From a virus: DNA of 45,034 nt. Where the stretch lies: positions 1 to 45,034 of IMG/VR virus record IMGVR_UViG_3300019776_000074; one strand, written 5' to 3'. Under the pieces are notes generated by a model. It did no database searches, was not told the origin of the DNA, and was given only the letters and a program-made list of their open reading frames with translations. The translations under genes and the position numbers were made by a program. Positions 5,955 through 33,462 of this stretch are shown here, piece by piece; within the stretch, counting starts at the first letter, position 1; each line of letters starts with the position of its first letter.

Positions 5955-6277
5955 CAGTAAAAGAGACGACTGAATATGATAACTTTCTAGGCAAGAAGGA
6001 AGAGATTGCAAAGCCAGCAGCACTCTTTGAGATTGAAGAGACTGAGGAAAGCGAACGCGAAAAGCTTTGGGTAGGAATGCCAGAGTTTGAACAGAAGGAC
6101 AATCCTCCGTTCAAGACAATCTATCTTCACTTCCGTTCAAAAGAAGACTTTGATGAATTTGTCTCAAAGTATAAGAATATGGATGAAGAGCAGAACATTA
6201 CACCCAAGACTAAGAGCATGTGGTATCCACATCTCGACAAGGACGAAAACTCATTGAAGCGTTGGTTTGAAGAATGA
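5951..6277 (+). CDS. phage protein with TKSMWYP domain, function unknown
   Basis: A 108-residue acidic protein. The second half has a beta-alpha element (TIYLHFRSKEDFDEFVSKY) ending in TKSMWYPHLD. This TKS-W(Y/F)P element is, from memory, a recurrent C-terminal module in phage proteins, sometimes attached to ParB-like nucleases or DNA methylases. Here it stands alone. It overlaps both neighbours as ATGA, lying between gp46 and a DNA-glycosyltransferase-like gene, so a role near DNA is possible but unproven. Confidence 0.65.
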   Translation: MTVKETTEYDNFLGKKEEIAKPAALFEIEETEESEREKLWVGMPEFEQKDNPPFKTIYLHFRSKEDFDEFVSKYKNMDEEQNITPKTKSMWYPHLDKDENSLKRWFEE

Positions 6278-7248
6278 CGAACCCGACTCATCCAGTTTAT
6301 ATTATTTCTAAGGGTAGACATGATACAATGTATACCTCGCGCTCACTCGCGCGTATGAAGATTCCGCATTACATTGCCATTGAGCCACAAGATGAAAAAC
6401 TATATGATGAAGCTCTGGATGCATTTAACATTCGTGAGTACGTTACCTTACTTGTTGCTCCTTTTTCTAATCATGGCGACGGTCCTGGTCGCGCTAGAAA
6501 TTGGTGCTGGGATCATTCAATGTCAATTGGTGCAACCTCTCATTGGGTGCTAGACGATAACATTTCTGACTTCTATCGTTTGCATAAGAACCAACGCATT
6601 CGTGTGGAGTCTGGTGTAATCTTCAAGGCCGCAGAAGACTTTGTTGACCGCTTTGAGAATGTTCCTATCTCAGGCTTTCAATATCGGTTCTTCATTGCGC
6701 CCAATCAGGCATATTATCCTTTTACACCAAACACTCGTATCTATTCTACTCTACTCATTCGCAACGATTGTAAACATCGTTGGCGTGGTAGATACAACGA
6801 AGACACGGATATTTGCCTCAGAGTTTTGAAAGATGGTGATTGCACAATTCAGTTCAATGCATTTTTACAAGGAAAGTCTGCAACACAAACCGTCAAGGGT
6901 GGCAACACTGCTGAGTTCTATCACGCTGAAGGTGATCTAGATAAGAGCAAGTGGCGTGACGGTCAGTTGAATGCAACTGGTACAGTGAACAAGTCTCAGA
7001 TGCTAGTTGATATGCACCCTGATGTAGCCAAGCTAGTTTGGAAGTACGGGCGTTGGCATCATCATGTTGACTACCTTCCGTTCCAGAAGCCAGAGCGGGA
7101 ATTGAATCCAGAACAGTTACAGATCCGCAGAAACCTTGGACTCGGGCCAGATGATAACCGTTTGAGACTGAAACCAGGCGTTGATCTTTCAAAGTTACCT
7201 AAGGTCAACAATTACGGGATGGTTCTCAAAAAGATATCAAAGACTTAG
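6274..7248 (+). CDS. TET-associated-type glycosyltransferase (DNA base glycosylation candidate)
   Basis: A 324-residue GT-A-like enzyme. Diagnostic features are PVYIISKGR at the N-terminus, GPGRARNWCWDHS near residue 75, the metal-binding HWVLDDNISDF, and RGRYNEDTDICLR near residue 170. This combination fits the TAGT family, described computationally as phage glycosyltransferases that decorate oxidised or hydroxymethylated bases. No TET/JBP oxygenase or hydroxymethylase is in the window, so the base would come from genes elsewhere. The dNMP kinase at 12340 would suit handling of modified nucleotides. Sugar donor and substrate are unknown. A glycan-modifying role is the alternative. The gene ends in a repeated ACTTAGCC motif and is followed by a terminator. 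Confidence 0.68.
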   Translation: MTNPTHPVYIISKGRHDTMYTSRSLARMKIPHYIAIEPQDEKLYDEALDAFNIREYVTLLVAPFSNHGDGPGRARNWCWDHSMSIGATSHWVLDDNISDFYRLHKNQRIRVESGVIFKAAEDFVDRFENVPISGFQYRFFIAPNQAYYPFTPNTRIYSTLLIRNDCKHRWRGRYNEDTDICLRVLKDGDCTIQFNAFLQGKSATQTVKGGNTAEFYHAEGDLDKSKWRDGQLNATGTVNKSQMLVDMHPDVAKLVWKYGRWHHHVDYLPFQKPERELNPEQLQIRRNLGLGPDDNRLRLKPGVDLSKLPKVNNYGMVLKKISKT

Positions 7249-7363
7249 CCGAACCCAATAAAATCAATCACTTAGCCACCAGCCATGCGTCCAGCGTATG
7301 GCTGGTATGCTTTTTAAGACATTGTAAATCCGACTTGCCATCCCCATATCTAGTATATGATGA
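7243..7363. repeat. intergenic module, copy A (two shared blocks around a hairpin)
   Basis: Two blocks recur at 43561-43691. The first (7252-7277) is 26 bases, identical in both copies. The second (7329-7363) is 35 bases with one mismatch and contains TTGCCA and TCTAGTATATGATGA. Between them each copy has a hairpin ending in GGTATGC and about 25 unrelated bases. ACTTAGCC occurs twice in each copy (here 7243-7250 and 7270-7277). The second block ends on the ATGATG of a small reading frame in both places. A shared promoter module is the simplest reading. Confidence 0.8.
7278..7315 (+). terminator. Rho-independent terminator after the glycosyltransferase
   Basis: ACCAGCCATGCG (7278-7289) pairs with CGTATGGCTGGT (7295-7306) through 12 pairs including one G-U, around a five-base loop. 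Four bases later comes a run of five T (7311-7315). It would end the transcript that runs from gene 55 through the glycosyltransferase. Confidence 0.75.
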
Positions 7364-7472: not shown

Positions 7473-7501
7473 TTGACCTCAGCCGCATATTCGTATAAGA
7501 T
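7473..7501 (+). promoter_or_regulatory. sigma70-like promoter for the HExxH-VWA gene
   Basis: TTGACC (7473-7478) and TAAGAT (7496-7501) are spaced by 17 bases, with TATAAG overlapping the -10. A leader of about 17 bases including AAGAGGAC precedes the ATG at 7525. Confidence 0.6.
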
Positions 7502-7524: not shown

Positions 7525-9768
7525 ATGGAAGTAACACATAATCATAGTGCTAAGAGTCAGCTGGCTAAGCTGCTAGCTACGGAAAATATTACTGTACAGC
7601 ACAGTCCGTCGGCCAAGACTGCTTGGTTTGACGTTAAGAATCGTGTTTTGATGCTGCCCCTGTGGCGCGAAATGTCGGAAGACTTGTACGATATGCTGGT
7701 TGTCCATGAGGTCGGCCATGCTCTTGATACTCCTCCCGAGGGTTGGATGGATGCTATCACTGACATTGCAAAGCGCATTGCTGGTTCTACTTCCAATCGT
7801 GCTGTCGGTGCGGTCAAGGGTTTTCTGAACGTCATTGAAGACGCCCGCATTGACAAGCGCCAGAAGCGCCGCTTCCCTGGTTCCCGTCGAAACTATGTCA
7901 AGGGCTATGCTGAACTAATTCAGAAGGATTTCTTCGGCACTCTTACCCGTGACGTTAACTCTATGTCATTTATTGACCGCCTGAATATCTATTGTAAGGG
8001 CGGCGCAATGCTTGGTATCAAGTTCAATGCCGAAGAAAAGGTTTGGCTTGCTAAGGTTGAAGCGGCCGAAACTTTTGATGAGGTCATGACTCTCACTGAG
8101 GAAATCTTCGCTTGGTCTAAGCAAAAGCAGGAAGAGCAAGAACAGGAAATAAATGACTTCCGCACCGAGTTTGATGAGACTGGTGATGAGGAAGACGATT
8201 CTGAGTATGATTACGGCGATGATGATGCCGATGAGGACGAGGACGAAAACACCACGTCTGGTTCTGGTTCTTCTGATTATGAAGACGAGGACGAGGATGA
8301 GGACGAGGGTGAAGATGAGGACGAAGATTCCGATTCTTCGGAAAGTGGTGACGCCTCTGGTGCAAAGGATGATAATCCTCTAGACGTTGGTGCTAAGAGT
8401 GAAACAGACATTCCTGAGTCTGAGACCGAAAAGGCTTGGCAGGAACGTCAGAATGACCTTGTGCTAGACTCGGATGATGAGTATATCTATACAAAGATTC
8501 CGCGTCCGATTGATTACGATAAGGTTGTTTATGACTATAAAATTGTGCTGGCTGACCAGCGCAAGTGTGTCGCTAAGTTCCAGAACCAGGAATGGCTGAA
8601 GGAAGTTCGTGCTGACCTGCAAAAGTTCAAGTCGGACGAAGCCGCTTCGCTTTCCTTCATGGTGAAGGAATTTGAAATGCGGAAGTCGGCTGATGAATAT
8701 GCTCGGACTTCAGTGTCTAAGACTGGTGTGATTGATACCAACAAGCTTCATTCATACAAGTATAATGACGACCTGTTCCGTCGTATCACTTCGGTTGCAA
8801 CTGGTAAGAATCATGGCTTTGTCATGTTCATTGACTGGTCTGGCTCCATGGATGTCCATCTAAAAAAGACTGTAAAGCAGTTGATTTCCCTGACCATGTT
8901 CTGCAAGCGGGTTCAGATTCCGTTTGAAGTATATTCATTCCGTTCTAGTAACACCTATGACATGGAAAATGGCCGAGTGTCCGAACACTCTCGTCTTTTC
9001 ACCAGCAATCCTAACGAGTTTGAATTTGATGACTTTGTTGCTCGGAACCTTCTGTCTTCGCGGATGAATGTTGCCGAATACAATGACGCAATGTTCAATC
9101 TTTATGTTATGGCTTGCGGCGGTCGACTCAAGTGTGACGGCATGTCTTCTACTCCTCTCAATGAGTGTATCGGCACTGCCGATCTTATCATCAATCGGTT
9201 CAAGGCTCGGTCTAAGGTTCAGATTGTTAACACAATCTTCCTGACTGACGGCGAATCTGATCCGATTGGTTCGGTTCACGGCGTTCCTACTTTTTCTGTA
9301 AAGAAGAACCGAAAGTTCATTCTTCAGGACGAGATTACGAAAAAGAACTACGATGTCCGTCCGTCAGGAGATAGCTGGTATCGTAATGCTCCGTATGGTC
9401 AGAGAGACATGACCAGTCTTCTTCTCCGAGTTCTCAAGGAACGGACTGGTTGTAATCTGATTGGCTTCTATATCTCTTCTTACGGCTTTGATTCCATGTA
9501 CCGCCAGTTCTACGGTTATGGTAACAATGATGCCTTCAAGAAGTGCCAGACCGACTGGAAGTCTAATGGGTTCTTCGGCGTTACTACTGCTGGATATGAT
9601 GAATACTATATCCTCAATCCGAAGTCCATGAACGTGTCTTCTGGAAATCTTAATGTCAACTCCGATATGAGCAAGCGCAAGATTGCTTCGGAATTCATCA
9701 AGTTTTCGGAAAAGAAGGCTGTGTCCCGTGTTCTACTCTCTCGGTTTGTCAAGCGAATTGCCGCTTGA
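7525..9768 (+). CDS. HExxH metallopeptidase-like plus VWA domain protein (CobT/DUF2201-like)
   Basis: A 747-residue multidomain protein. Near the N-terminus is HEVGHALDTP (H61, E62, H65), the zinc-metallopeptidase signature, followed by a helical region with EDARIDKRQKRRFPGSRR. Residues about 210-280 are a run of Asp, Glu and Ser (a disordered acidic linker). The C-terminal part is a von Willebrand A domain with a complete MIDAS: DWSGS (D437), T near 543 and TDG (D575). The overall plan (N-domain, acidic linker, VWA) resembles CobT of aerobic cobaltochelatase and MoxR-associated VWA proteins. The AAA+ partner follows at 9828. I infer a protein-remodelling or maturation machine, not cobalt chelation, because no cobalamin genes are nearby. 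It ends in an 11-bp hairpin that carries the next promoter's -35. Confidence 0.8.
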   Translation: MEVTHNHSAKSQLAKLLATENITVQHSPSAKTAWFDVKNRVLMLPLWREMSEDLYDMLVVHEVGHALDTPPEGWMDAITDIAKRIAGSTSNRAVGAVKGFLNVIEDARIDKRQKRRFPGSRRNYVKGYAELIQKDFFGTLTRDVNSMSFIDRLNIYCKGGAMLGIKFNAEEKVWLAKVEAAETFDEVMTLTEEIFAWSKQKQEEQEQEINDFRTEFDETGDEEDDSEYDYGDDDADEDEDENTTSGSGSSDYEDEDEDEDEGEDEDEDSDSSESGDASGAKDDNPLDVGAKSETDIPESETEKAWQERQNDLVLDSDDEYIYTKIPRPIDYDKVVYDYKIVLADQRKCVAKFQNQEWLKEVRADLQKFKSDEAASLSFMVKEFEMRKSADEYARTSVSKTGVIDTNKLHSYKYNDDLFRRITSVATGKNHGFVMFIDWSGSMDVHLKKTVKQLISLTMFCKRVQIPFEVYSFRSSNTYDMENGRVSEHSRLFTSNPNEFEFDDFVARNLLSSRMNVAEYNDAMFNLYVMACGGRLKCDGMSSTPLNECIGTADLIINRFKARSKVQIVNTIFLTDGESDPIGSVHGVPTFSVKKNRKFILQDEITKKNYDVRPSGDSWYRNAPYGQRDMTSLLLRVLKERTGCNLIGFYISSYGFDSMYRQFYGYGNNDAFKKCQTDWKSNGFFGVTTAGYDEYYILNPKSMNVSSGNLNVNSDMSKRKIASEFIKFSEKKAVSRVLLSRFVKRIAA

Positions 9769-9792
9769 CAAATCATCCTATCCATGTATAAT
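9745..9792 (+). promoter_or_regulatory. promoter for the AAA+ gene, -35 inside an 11-bp inverted repeat
   Basis: TTGACA (9765-9770) and TATAAT (9787-9792) are spaced by 16 bases, a near-consensus sigma70 promoter. The -35 is in the right arm of a perfect inverted repeat, TTTGTCAAGC (9745-9754) with GCTTGACAAA (9763-9772), extended by one G-C pair inside. The repeat covers the last codons of the VWA gene. No T-run follows, so an operator is as likely as a terminator. Confidence 0.75.
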
Positions 9793-9827
9793 ATCCAAGT
9801 AAACTGAGAAACAAGGAAAGATACCTA

Positions 9828-11057
9828 ATGGCTAAGCGCCCTGTTGATAAGACCCCGTTCCTTAACGCTATCCGTGCGGAATTCGGGGATATCAAGACCA
9901 TCACTCGCCAGCAGATTGTCCAGATCATGTCTGACTACAATCTGAAGGATCCTCTGTGGCTTACCAAGAATGATGCTGTCCGCGTTGGTCGCGGTGTTTA
10001 TTCTCTTGATGACACTGCCGCGGTTGCTCCTGTGGCTAAGGCTGTCAAGGCCGTGAAGTCTGCTAAGACCATTGCTGCCTCTGAGATTGCTTCGGCTGTT
10101 CCTGTTTCTCAGGTTACCGAAGTTGCCAATCACGCAGATATGGCGATGGCTCTTCATGCTAGCACCGAGATGATTTCTCTGGTGCCGACTAAGGCCAGCG
10201 GCTACGTTCCCTTCGGTCACTTCCCTGATGTTCGCATGATTATCAAGTCTGGTAAGTTCTATCCGACTTATGTGACTGGTCTCTCTGGCAACGGTAAGAC
10301 CATGATGATTGAACAGATTTGCGCCCAAGAAAATCGTGAGCTGGTTCGCGCCAACATTACCAAGGAAACTGATGAGGACGACCTGATCGGTGGCTTCCGT
10401 CTCATTGACGGTAAGACTGTCTGGCAGAACGGCCCTGTCATTGTTGCCATGGAACGCGGTGCAATTCTACTGCTGGACGAGGTTGACCTTGGCGATGCCA
10501 AGCTTATGTGTCTCCAGCCGATCCTCGAAGGTAAGCCGATCTACCTCAAGAAGATCAACCGAGTTGTAACGCCTGCTCCTGGCTTTAACATCCTTGCTAC
10601 CGCTAATACCAAGGGTAAGGGTTCCGACGATGGTCGCTTCATCGGTACCAACGTCATGAACGAAGCCTTCCTCGAGCGTTTCTCTATCACGTTTGAGCAG
10701 GAATATCCGCCCGTCAAGACCGAAGCCAAGATCCTCAACAATGTCCTCAAGTCTTCTGGTCTTGAAGACAAGGACTTTGCCGACAAGCTGGTCAACTGGG
10801 CTGACATGATCCGTAAGGCGTTCTACGATGGTGCCGTGTCTGATATCATCTCCACTCGCCGACTGGTTCATATCTGCGAAGCCTATGCCATCTTCGGTCA
10901 GGATCGTGAGAAGGCAATCAAGCTTTGTCTGAACCGCTTCGACGTGGATACCAAGAACGGCTTCTTTGACCTCTACACCAAGCTGGATGAAACTATCGCT
11001 CCGAAGACTGATGAAACGATCACCAATGTTGTTGATGGTGAAGAGGTGCCTTTCTAA
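9828..11057 (+). CDS. MoxR/CobS-like AAA+ ATPase
   Basis: A 409-residue protein. Residues about 5-65 form a small domain (ITRQQIVQIMSDYNLKDP, VGRGVYSL) that looks like a DNA-binding or adaptor module often preceding CobS-like ATPases in phages. An Ala/Lys/Val linker follows. The AAA+ core has Walker A GLSGNGKTMM (about 150-159), Walker B AILLLDEVD (about 213-221) and a sensor-1 LATANTKGKG. The enzyme belongs to the MoxR/CobS clade, which works with VWA-domain partners, and such a partner lies directly upstream. Phage homologues are often labelled cobaltochelatase CobS. Nothing here supports a cobalamin role. It has its own near-consensus promoter and ends at a promoter-terminator hybrid. Confidence 0.88.
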   Translation: MAKRPVDKTPFLNAIRAEFGDIKTITRQQIVQIMSDYNLKDPLWLTKNDAVRVGRGVYSLDDTAAVAPVAKAVKAVKSAKTIAASEIASAVPVSQVTEVANHADMAMALHASTEMISLVPTKASGYVPFGHFPDVRMIIKSGKFYPTYVTGLSGNGKTMMIEQICAQENRELVRANITKETDEDDLIGGFRLIDGKTVWQNGPVIVAMERGAILLLDEVDLGDAKLMCLQPILEGKPIYLKKINRVVTPAPGFNILATANTKGKGSDDGRFIGTNVMNEAFLERFSITFEQEYPPVKTEAKILNNVLKSSGLEDKDFADKLVNWADMIRKAFYDGAVSDIISTRRLVHICEAYAIFGQDREKAIKLCLNRFDVDTKNGFFDLYTKLDETIAPKTDETITNVVDGEEVPF

Positions 11058-11086
11058 TTGACATTAGGTAAAGCCTGATGTATAAT
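11058..11086 (+). promoter_or_regulatory. near-consensus promoter for the small HTH gene
   Basis: TTGACA (11058-11063) and TATAAT (11081-11086) are spaced by exactly 17 bases and overlap the very end of the AAA+ gene. The predicted start of transcription (about 11093) falls inside the left arm of the terminator hairpin that follows. Confidence 0.8.
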
Positions 11087-11127
11087 GCAGGCAGTGTGGT
11101 AAAGAACCGCCCACACTGCCTGCTTTT
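11087..11127 (+). terminator. Rho-independent terminator overlapping the promoter start site
   Basis: GCAGGCAGTGTGG (11087-11099) pairs perfectly over 13 bp with CCACACTGCCTGC (11111-11123), loop 11 bases, followed by TTTTCT. RNA from upstream carries the complete stem. RNA begun at the promoter at 11058 would lack the first six bases and form only about 7 bp. Confidence 0.85.
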
Positions 11128-11162
11128 CTATCCAATCGGTTCGTTTATTATGGAGTTATTGA

Positions 11163-11375
11163 ATGTCTCAGATTCGTAAGGTTGCTAAGGTTCTCCGTCA
11201 GAACAATAAGGGCGCTGGTATTACCGTTGCTCAGATTGCTCGTTTGACCGGAGTGCCTAAGGCTAGCGTTAGTAAGCGAGTCTATGACCTCCGCACCATG
11301 GAAGGTCATACGATTTATAGCAACTACCGCAAGGTCAACGGCAAGCGTAAGATGTTTTATCGTTTTGCTGCCTAA
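11163..11375 (+). CDS. small winged helix-turn-helix protein
   Basis: A 70-residue basic protein. VAQIARLTGVPKASVSKRVY is a textbook helix-turn-helix in which the second helix would enter the major groove, and the C-terminal strands (YSNYRKVNGKRKMFYRF) form the wing. It is preceded by TATGGAG and its own promoter. A DNA-binding regulator acting on phage or host promoters is likely; targets are unknown. The inverted repeats at 9745 and 11087 are candidate sites close by, which is speculation. Confidence 0.75.
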   Translation: MSQIRKVAKVLRQNNKGAGITVAQIARLTGVPKASVSKRVYDLRTMEGHTIYSNYRKVNGKRKMFYRFAA

Positions 11376-31764: not shown

Positions 31765-33462
31765 ATGAATGACTTCACTCTCGTAACTGGGTTGTGGGAT
31801 ATAAAGCGCGGTGAACTGAAAGATTTTTACCGCGCTTTTGATCATTATCTAGAATCTTTTTCAAAACTGCTGACACTAGATTTCAACATGGTCATCTATG
31901 TTCCAAAAGAACTGGAACAGTTTGTTCATAATAAGAGAGACTTTACCAAAACAAAGATAGTCGTTCGTGAACTATCAGATTTTCGTAAGAGTTTTGATTT
32001 CTTTAAAGAAGTTCAGCACATCCGTGAGAATCAATCTTGGAATCAAAGGGCAGACTGGCTAGCTAACTCACCGCAAGCTAAACTCGAATACTATAATCCT
32101 ATTGTCATGTCAAAGTTCTTCATGTTGCATGACGCTAAGATTTTGGATCCATTCAATTCGAAGTATTTCTTTTGGATAGATGCGGGTCTAACTAATACTG
32201 TTGATATTGGTTCATTGCAAAACATGATCAAACTTTCTTCGTATATGCAAAAGACGAAGAAGAAGTTTTTAATGTTGTCTTTTCCATACATCAACGATAA
32301 TGAAGTTCATGGATTTGAGAGCAAAGCTTTTGCTGAGTTTTGTGATGTAGAACGAACTGAATATGTCTGTCGAGGAGGTTTCTTCGGCGGCACAAAAGAA
32401 CAGATACACAAGTTCAACTTTCATTACTATGATTATCTCAAAGCAACTTTAAAGAAAGGCTTAATGGGTACAGAAGAAAACATTCTGACCATTCTATCAC
32501 ATAAGCTTTCTAATGAGGTGCAAAGATTTGAGCTAGAAGGTAACGGTCTAGTATATCCCTTCTTTGATTACCTAAAAACACTTAAAGAAGAAGATTTGAT
32601 AGTACACAATTCAGACTTGATACAGTGGTCAAAACGTAAGCCAATAGAAGATATAAAAACATCTTTGTATGTCCTAACGTTCAATAGTCCTAGACAGTTT
32701 GAAGCTTTAGTACAATCTTATGCTCGTAATGCGCCTGCGTTTTTACAAAACACACGCAAGATACTGGTAGACAATTCTACTGACAAAGACCTCTACGAAG
32801 AATATAACAAACTGTGTCGCACGTATCAGTTTGAGCATATCAAGAAAGAGGACAATATAGGTATTTGTGGAGCCAGACAGTTTGTTGCCGAACACTTCAA
32901 TGAAAGTGACTCAGAGTATTATATCTTCCTAGAAGACGACATGAATGCGAGTGATAATATGGAAAACTTGTGTGAGTCTGGCTATAAAAAACATGATGAA
33001 AATCTCTATGAAAAATCACTTGCAATCGCTCATCTAAACCAGTATGATTACCTTAAGCTTTCGTTTTCAGAGTTCTATGGAAACAATGCTACGCAGTGGG
33101 CATGGTATAATATTCCACAGAAGTTGCGTACACAATGGTTTCCAGAAAAACCAAATCTGCCAGAAGAGGGATTGGATCCTGATGCTCCTAAAACGGAAAT
33201 CTTTCAAGAGAAGCGGCACAAAGGATTGAAATATTACGAGGGTGAATTCCATTACTGTAATTGGCCTTTATGGTTTTCAAGAAAAGGAAATCGTAAGGTC
33301 TTTCTTGATACAAAGTGGTCTTATCCAAACGAACAAACATGGATGAGTAATGTTTTCCAAATGCAAAAAGAAGGCAAGATCAAATGCGCTGTCTTGGCAT
33401 TAAGTCCTATTTTCCATCATCGCTTTGATTTTTATCCCGCAGAGGATAGAAAAGAGAGTTGA
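31765..33462 (+). CDS. two-domain glycosyltransferase: HtrL/YibB-like plus GT2-like
   Basis: A 565-residue protein. Residues 1-290 follow the HtrL/YibB family: VTGLWDIKRGELKDFYRAF, KFFMLHDAKI, YFFWIDAGLTN (metal site), and CRGGFFGGTKEQI. Residues about 295-565 are a second transferase: LYVLTFNSPRQFEALVQSY, KEDNIGICGARQFVAEHF and YYIFLEDDMNAS (DxD site). The fusion would transfer two sugars in turn. It closes the glycan island; the next promoter begins inside its last codons. Confidence 0.8.
   Translation: MNDFTLVTGLWDIKRGELKDFYRAFDHYLESFSKLLTLDFNMVIYVPKELEQFVHNKRDFTKTKIVVRELSDFRKSFDFFKEVQHIRENQSWNQRADWLANSPQAKLEYYNPIVMSKFFMLHDAKILDPFNSKYFFWIDAGLTNTVDIGSLQNMIKLSSYMQKTKKKFLMLSFPYINDNEVHGFESKAFAEFCDVERTEYVCRGGFFGGTKEQIHKFNFHYYDYLKATLKKGLMGTEENILTILSHKLSNEVQRFELEGNGLVYPFFDYLKTLKEEDLIVHNSDLIQWSKRKPIEDIKTSLYVLTFNSPRQFEALVQSYARNAPAFLQNTRKILVDNSTDKDLYEEYNKLCRTYQFEHIKKEDNIGICGARQFVAEHFNESDSEYYIFLEDDMNASDNMENLCESGYKKHDENLYEKSLAIAHLNQYDYLKLSFSEFYGNNATQWAWYNIPQKLRTQWFPEKPNLPEEGLDPDAPKTEIFQEKRHKGLKYYEGEFHYCNWPLWFSRKGNRKVFLDTKWSYPNEQTWMSNVFQMQKEGKIKCAVLALSPIFHHRFDFYPAEDRKES

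Follow-up and report, generated by a model that had tools for sequence, protein, structure and literature searches.

A CobT-related phage protein with an apparently intact zinc-peptidase site, and its CobS-like AAA+ partner, in a T4-like phage

Vitamin B12 auxiliary metabolic genes are widely taken to include the cobS and cobT genes of phages, and T4-like cyanophages have cobS in their core gene set. What such genes do is the question raised by a gene pair in a 45-kb IMG/VR record of a T4-like phage (the window, that is, the whole stretch of DNA analysed). The larger protein, of 747 residues, matches phrog_459 ('peptidase') over residues 6-746 (E=9e-204), and its 409-residue AAA+ neighbour matches phrog_249 ('porphyrin biosynthesis', 'cobS'; E=4e-115). 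The phage pair has been read as the cobaltochelatase CobST (PMC8651126), and jumbo phages have been described that encode a MoxR AAA+ protein and a vWA protein bearing a metallopeptidase at its N-terminus, with a proposed role in virion assembly (PMC7824862). Neither the pair nor the protease idea is new, both having been published (PMC8651126, PMC7824862).

The three open reading frames of the locus, encoding the 747-residue protein, the AAA+ protein and a small HTH protein, were confirmed as the original prediction had placed them (Table 1). The two phrog families are adjacent in the window and sit among replication genes (gp46/47, gp45, gp44 and gp62). Upstream of the pair lie gp47/gp46; then come the sliding clamp, the clamp loader, RegA, DNA polymerase, UvsX and a DnaB-like helicase. 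The gp46-gp45 placement is the same in Pelagibacter phage HTVC008M and Prochlorococcus phage P-RSM4.

Table 1. Features of the pair and its surroundings in the window.
Feature	Position	Strand	Basis and remarks
Zincin-VWA protein gene	7525..9768	+	ORF, ATG start, 747 aa; phrog_459 'peptidase', CobT-like architecture
N-terminal zincin-like domain (predicted), residues 1-212	7525..8160	+	AF2 model and PDB structural alignments
HEVGH, H61-E62-V63-G64-H65	7705..7719	+	H61, E62 and H65 invariant in 95 relatives
Second motif, N102-V-I-E105-D106-A-R108-I-D110	7828..7854	+	N102, E105, D106 and R108 invariant
Acidic disordered linker, about residues 213-291	8161..8397	+	Translation; pLDDT <50 at 216-291
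VWA domain, about residues 425-747, complete MIDAS	8797..9765	+	Invariant MIDAS residues; structural matches
CobS/MoxR-like AAA+ ATPase gene	9828..11057	+	ORF, 409 aa; phrog_249
HTH protein gene	11163..11375	+	ORF, 70 aa
Promoter-like site before peptidase gene	7473..7501	+	TTGACC-17-TAAGAT, 9/12, best site there
Perfect sigma70-type promoter before AAA+ gene	9765..9792	+	TTGACA-16-TATAAT, 12/12
Perfect sigma70-type promoter before HTH gene	11058..11086	+	TTGACA-17-TATAAT, 12/12

Relatives of the 747-residue protein were found by tblastn in 463 phage records, nearly all of them marine cyanophages. By a strict count, the AAA+ gene lies at most 2.5 kb downstream of the peptidase gene in 90 of the 119 relative loci with enough sequence, and in three further loci it overlaps the peptidase-gene stop by a few bases. 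One clade (L095, L124 and L132) has a peptidase gene with no adjoining AAA+ gene. The AAA+ gene stands elsewhere in an 87-kb record (L114), away from the peptidase gene, and it was not found in several fragment records of the non-adjacent clade. Relatives assigned to bacterial chromosomes numbered 18 loci; almost all of these lie on contigs of marine MAGs or single cells that may be binned phage sequences. The window pair is a member of an already known phage family, core in marine T4-like phages. It shares families, order, strand and the usual gp46-gp45 place with the pairs of T4-like cyanophages and pelagiphages, but identity between the window protein and the cyanophage peptidase proteins reaches about 35-37% at most, and in the window the AAA+ gene is followed by an HTH gene that has a promoter of its own. 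A PADLOC scan gave no convincing match.

The fusion of an HEVGH motif, an acidic linker and a VWA domain with complete MIDAS in one protein, noticed in the original prediction, was confirmed. The MIDAS comprises D437-W-S439-G-S441, T543 and D575. Its five numbered residues, together with H61, E62 and H65 of HEVGH and N102, E105, D106 and R108 of the second motif, are identical in 95 of 95 non-redundant relatives, a set fetched in part with a pattern that includes HExxH. The same residues are invariant in the 33 relatives of the first scan, fetched with patterns free of HExxH, and the motifs are thus not due to chance. The closest structural matches of the VWA domain were the NorD VWA (Z 15.9) and the Rea1 MIDAS domain (Z 14.4). 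The protein had no Pfam match with an E of 1 or below, PF06213 included, and none in NCBIfam; when PDB sequences were searched using the family profile, chance matches alone came back. Profile searches with the 33 relatives gave scattered weak matches, among them that of a single member to DUF2201_N, of the DUF2201 metallopeptidase-VWA family (PF13203; E=0.087); a search of 120 genomes for DUF2201_N sequences to compare with yielded one weak bacterial locus.

Since the whole-protein structure search probed only the VWA half, the N-domain (residues 1-212) was modelled alone with AF2 from 102 sequences, giving a pLDDT of 91.8 and a pTM of 0.87. The model runs from a helix through three strands to the HExxH helix and then a helix with N-x-x-E-D. 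In the PDB comparison its top ranks are taken by zinc metallopeptidases or zincin-fold proteins: ZMPSTE24 (Z 7.1, 145 residues, 4.4 A), BlaR1 (6.3), ArdC (5.8), Ste24p (5.6), selecase (5.3) and IrrE (5.1). Because each Z is modest, at 5-7, and the Foldseek E-values (>0.1) are not significant, a zincin fold is likely for this model, not proven. The predicted domain does resemble zincins, and a fold unable to hold a metal site at H61 and H65 did not emerge. Among viral models, matches beyond close relatives were CobT-like and VWFA phage proteins. The zincin peptidases of M48/M56, ArdC and IrrE have the HExxH-helix fold in common with the N-domain at these Z values, but they lack a VWA domain or AAA+ partner and are of low similarity to the window protein.

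A relation to CobT was reached through SSU5-type phage-plasmids, which encode a 788-residue protein adjoining an AAA+ gene. The SSU5-type protein (P0001) matches the Pfam families CobT (PF06213; 131 bits, cut-off 26.1) and CobT_C (PF11775; 380 bits), and besides these domains it carries D-HEVAH and N-ALED. In profile comparisons, SSU5-type proteins align with bacterial CobT along the full length (E=6e-48, 579 columns), and the window family aligns with SSU5-type proteins over the N-domain (E=5.9e-19), placing HEVGH on HEVAH and NVIEDARID on NALEDVFIE. The window family also matches CobT directly (E=8e-7), over the helices before the VWA domain and the first part of that domain. Compared alone, the N-domain and CobT gave a weak match (P=0.005) in which the HExxH helix is three residues off the bridged register; this was too weak to use, and the SSU5-type bridge was used instead. 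On these alignments the window protein is a CobT homologue and the AAA+ protein a CobS relative, so that the separation of the pair from cobaltochelatase, as originally put, was not borne out.

The zinc site distinguishes the two branches. In a joint alignment, HExxH is present in 17 of 19 SSU5-type proteins and in none of 25 bacterial CobT sequences, nearly all of which have [SA]-[hydrophobic]-x-x-[RK] at these positions; the D preceding the HExxH position is kept in all proteins. The phage protein thus apparently retains an intact peptidase site, unlike CobT. Bacterial CobT is most aptly described as a relative without the zinc site, a pseudo-peptidase relation that rests on the alignment; the comparison is unrooted and gives neither the ancestral state nor the direction of change. 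With CobT homology and a peptidase-type site in one phage protein, both annotations are half right. Our literature search found no account of CobT as a metallopeptidase relative. A sequence search turned up the solved CobT chain 9uka_G, which is absent from the fold lists, an absence that proves nothing.

The same alignment bears on the third metal ligand, for which D106 and E105 are the candidates. The SSU5-type residue E109 (E105 in the window) is kept in 24 of the 25 CobT sequences, whereas none of the 25 keeps D110 (D106 in the window), nor do the two SSU5-type members without HExxH. D106 co-varies with the zinc site across the alignment while the glutamate stays, and D106 is therefore the best candidate ligand, ahead of E105. 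By eye, an ICP2 protein (HECYH ... VVDHNIE) agrees with this choice.

Also as predicted, the neighbour is a MoxR/CobS-like AAA+ protein with all catalytic motifs kept. Walker A (GLSGNGKT, 151-158), Walker B (LLLDE, 214-218), sensor-1 N260 and R284 are invariant in 27 relatives. Besides phrog_249, the protein matches Pfam AAA_5 (E=7e-19) and, far below the cut-off, the CobS equivalog model TIGR01650 (E=3e-29; 102 bits against 558.6), and its family profile matches midasin and CobS chains in the PDB. Its first 60 residues (9828-10010; conserved ...P-WL...R-GRGVYSL) have the look of a winged-HTH extension and gave no family match.

The cobalamin-raising role proposed for archaeal and cyanobacterial viruses (PMC8651126) could operate if the pair replaced host CobS/CobT (or ChlI/ChlD) and drove host CobN, raising cobalamin for nucleotide synthesis. 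The homology of the pair to CobT and CobS is real and the proposal is already in print; CobN/Mg-chelatase-type proteins do exist in cyanobacteria, as the Synechococcus elongatus control in our PF02514 search confirmed. That search, however, found no CobN/Mg-chelatase in any of 19 phage or plasmid records, several of them fragments: neither in the window nor in the 18 others, HTVC008M and P-RSM4 included. No cob genes were seen as neighbours either, in keeping with the original remark that no corrin genes are near. The zinc site kept in the phage proteins and absent from 25 of 25 CobT sequences, the CobS cut-off missed by far and the missing PF06213 match of the window protein also speak against cobalt insertion, as do relatives encoded on enterobacterial phage-plasmids and by a phage of SAR11. 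The latter is HTVC008M, whose protein carries HExxH and whose host clade is B12-auxotrophic (PMC9296465), so that no corrin ring to metallate is expected there. In other hosts the pair could use host CobN. These results lower the cobaltochelatase reading, which we now regard as very improbable, without closing it. In comparison with the aerobic cobaltochelatase, the phage pair has the three-part architecture and the AAA+ partner in common, but CobT has no zinc site and the phage pair no CobN.

When the pair is expressed also matters. The original claim that each gene has its own strong promoter stood for the AAA+ and HTH genes, each preceded by a perfect sigma70-type site, but not for the peptidase gene, whose best site scores 9 of 12. 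Of 112 relatives, 60 have a 12/12 sigma70-type site ahead of the AAA+ gene, as against 1.2% of background 150-b stretches. The 150 b preceding the peptidase gene contained the late motif ATAAATA in none of 147 relatives, and the stretch before the AAA+ gene contained it in 6 of 112; many of the loci are closely related, and these counts are therefore not independent. A literature search on the expression timing of phage cobS or peptidase genes returned no paper naming them. The sigma70-type sites, the lack of a late motif before the peptidase gene and the replication-gene setting together favour early expression, and with it an early role over one in virion assembly.

An assembly machine of the kind suggested for jumbo phages, in which the pair would be a chaperone and a protease that processes structural proteins, draws on a published comparison to MoxR-vWA chaperones in Acidianus two-tailed virus (PMC7824862), and early genes can act late. 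The position with gp46/47, gp45, gp44 and gp62, the early-type promoters and the 0 of 147 count nevertheless make it unlikely, and the part of the original guess that pointed to virion assembly fits poorly. Compared by description only, group 2.2 jumbo phages have the same MoxR AAA+/vWA-metallopeptidase architecture and pairing (PMC7824862); the window's relatives, in contrast, are not jumbo phages, and their expression looks early, not late.

We consider it probable that the pair, a member of the CobS-CobT superfamily, is expressed early and is a zinc protease or a remodelling machine of AAA+-VWA type, with predicted activity. The proteolytic or remodelling machine suggested at the outset gains from the intact zincin-type site, the VWA domain, the AAA+ partner and the lack of CobN; proteolysis itself remains a prediction. 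By analogy with CobS-CobT and NorQ-NorD, the AAA+ protein would form a ring and dock the VWA domain via its MIDAS. Ring and MIDAS domain would serve as the motor, with the zincin on a flexible acidic arm that may let it reach the substrate. Shortly after infection the complex might then act on a host protein or an early phage protein, by unfolding and cleaving it or by cleaving it in the course of remodelling. The complex itself, its binding of zinc, the cleavage and the substrate are all inferred along these lines.

A purely structural zinc site would make the pair a MoxR-type chaperone that remodels a protein complex without cleaving it. CobT works without the site, and so do or persist two phage or phage-plasmid lineages: Pseudomonas phage nickie has SExxK in place of HExxH (L214, 4010-6094) and an Acinetobacter plasmid has QExxK (L218, 4004-5926), apparently through separate losses. 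The activity is thus not always needed, and the scaffold can persist without the site. The VWA domain is moreover closest to NorD and Rea1 MIDAS domains, which belong to remodelling AAA+ systems. Against this, the general-base glutamate E62, superfluous for a purely structural site, is invariant in 95 of 95 relatives, and we think a pseudo-enzyme scaffold quite unlikely. NorQ-NorD and Rea1/Midasin have the VWA/MIDAS fold (Z 14-16) and AAA+ relatedness in common with the window pair, but they serve dedicated substrates and have no known zincin domain. SSU5-type proteins ('porphyrin biosynthesis protein' or CobT-like) have in common with the window protein HExxH, the E-D motif, an acidic linker, a VWA domain and a downstream AAA+ gene; they differ in a VWA domain closer to CobT and in having dnaE, not gp46/gp45, as neighbour.

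The full reading, in which the phage machine is a widespread early ATP-driven VWA-coupled zinc protease and CobT a relative that lost the protease site, its scaffold being reused for cobalt insertion, is a tentative one, to which we give a little under an even chance. If true, phage 'cobS/cobT' genes would not be vitamin B12 auxiliary genes. Should the pair be an early protease, many ecological inferences on viral B12 metabolism would need revision, and it would become possible to test a conserved route that very common marine phages use to alter proteins of the host or of the phage. The zinc site present in phage proteins and absent from CobT offers a likely origin for the unexplained CobT N-domain, and the same contrast accounts for the split among annotators over 'peptidase' and 'CobT'. 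The use of the result lies in reconciling two conflicting annotations and in a testable claim on the real role of phage cobS/cobT genes.

The small third protein had been called a winged-HTH protein. An HTH assignment is consistent with its matches, but weak: MarR_2 (E=1e-4) lies below the Pfam cut-off, as do other HTH models. About 50 relative loci have a homologue of the gene, in most cases immediately behind the AAA+ gene. In the window, the -10 box of the HTH-gene promoter is immediately followed by a 13-bp inverted repeat with an 11-nt loop (11087-11123), a putative operator for the HTH protein or RNA leader. Of 70 distinct relatives, 28 have a stem of at least 12 bp after the AAA+ gene, compared with 19 of 1500 random stretches; the pairing is preserved although the sequence has changed almost completely. 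The repeat had no meaningful match in Rfam.

Upstream of the pair, a gene at 6274-7248 encodes a TET-associated glycosyltransferase (TAGT; PF20691, E=9e-44; phrog_842), which suggests hypermodified phage DNA. A 565-residue protein (31765-33462) gives a second, weak match to the phrog_842 glucosyltransferase (E=2e-4). Between the glycosyltransferase and peptidase genes lies a strong terminator-like hairpin of 13 pairs with a T run (7278-7306).
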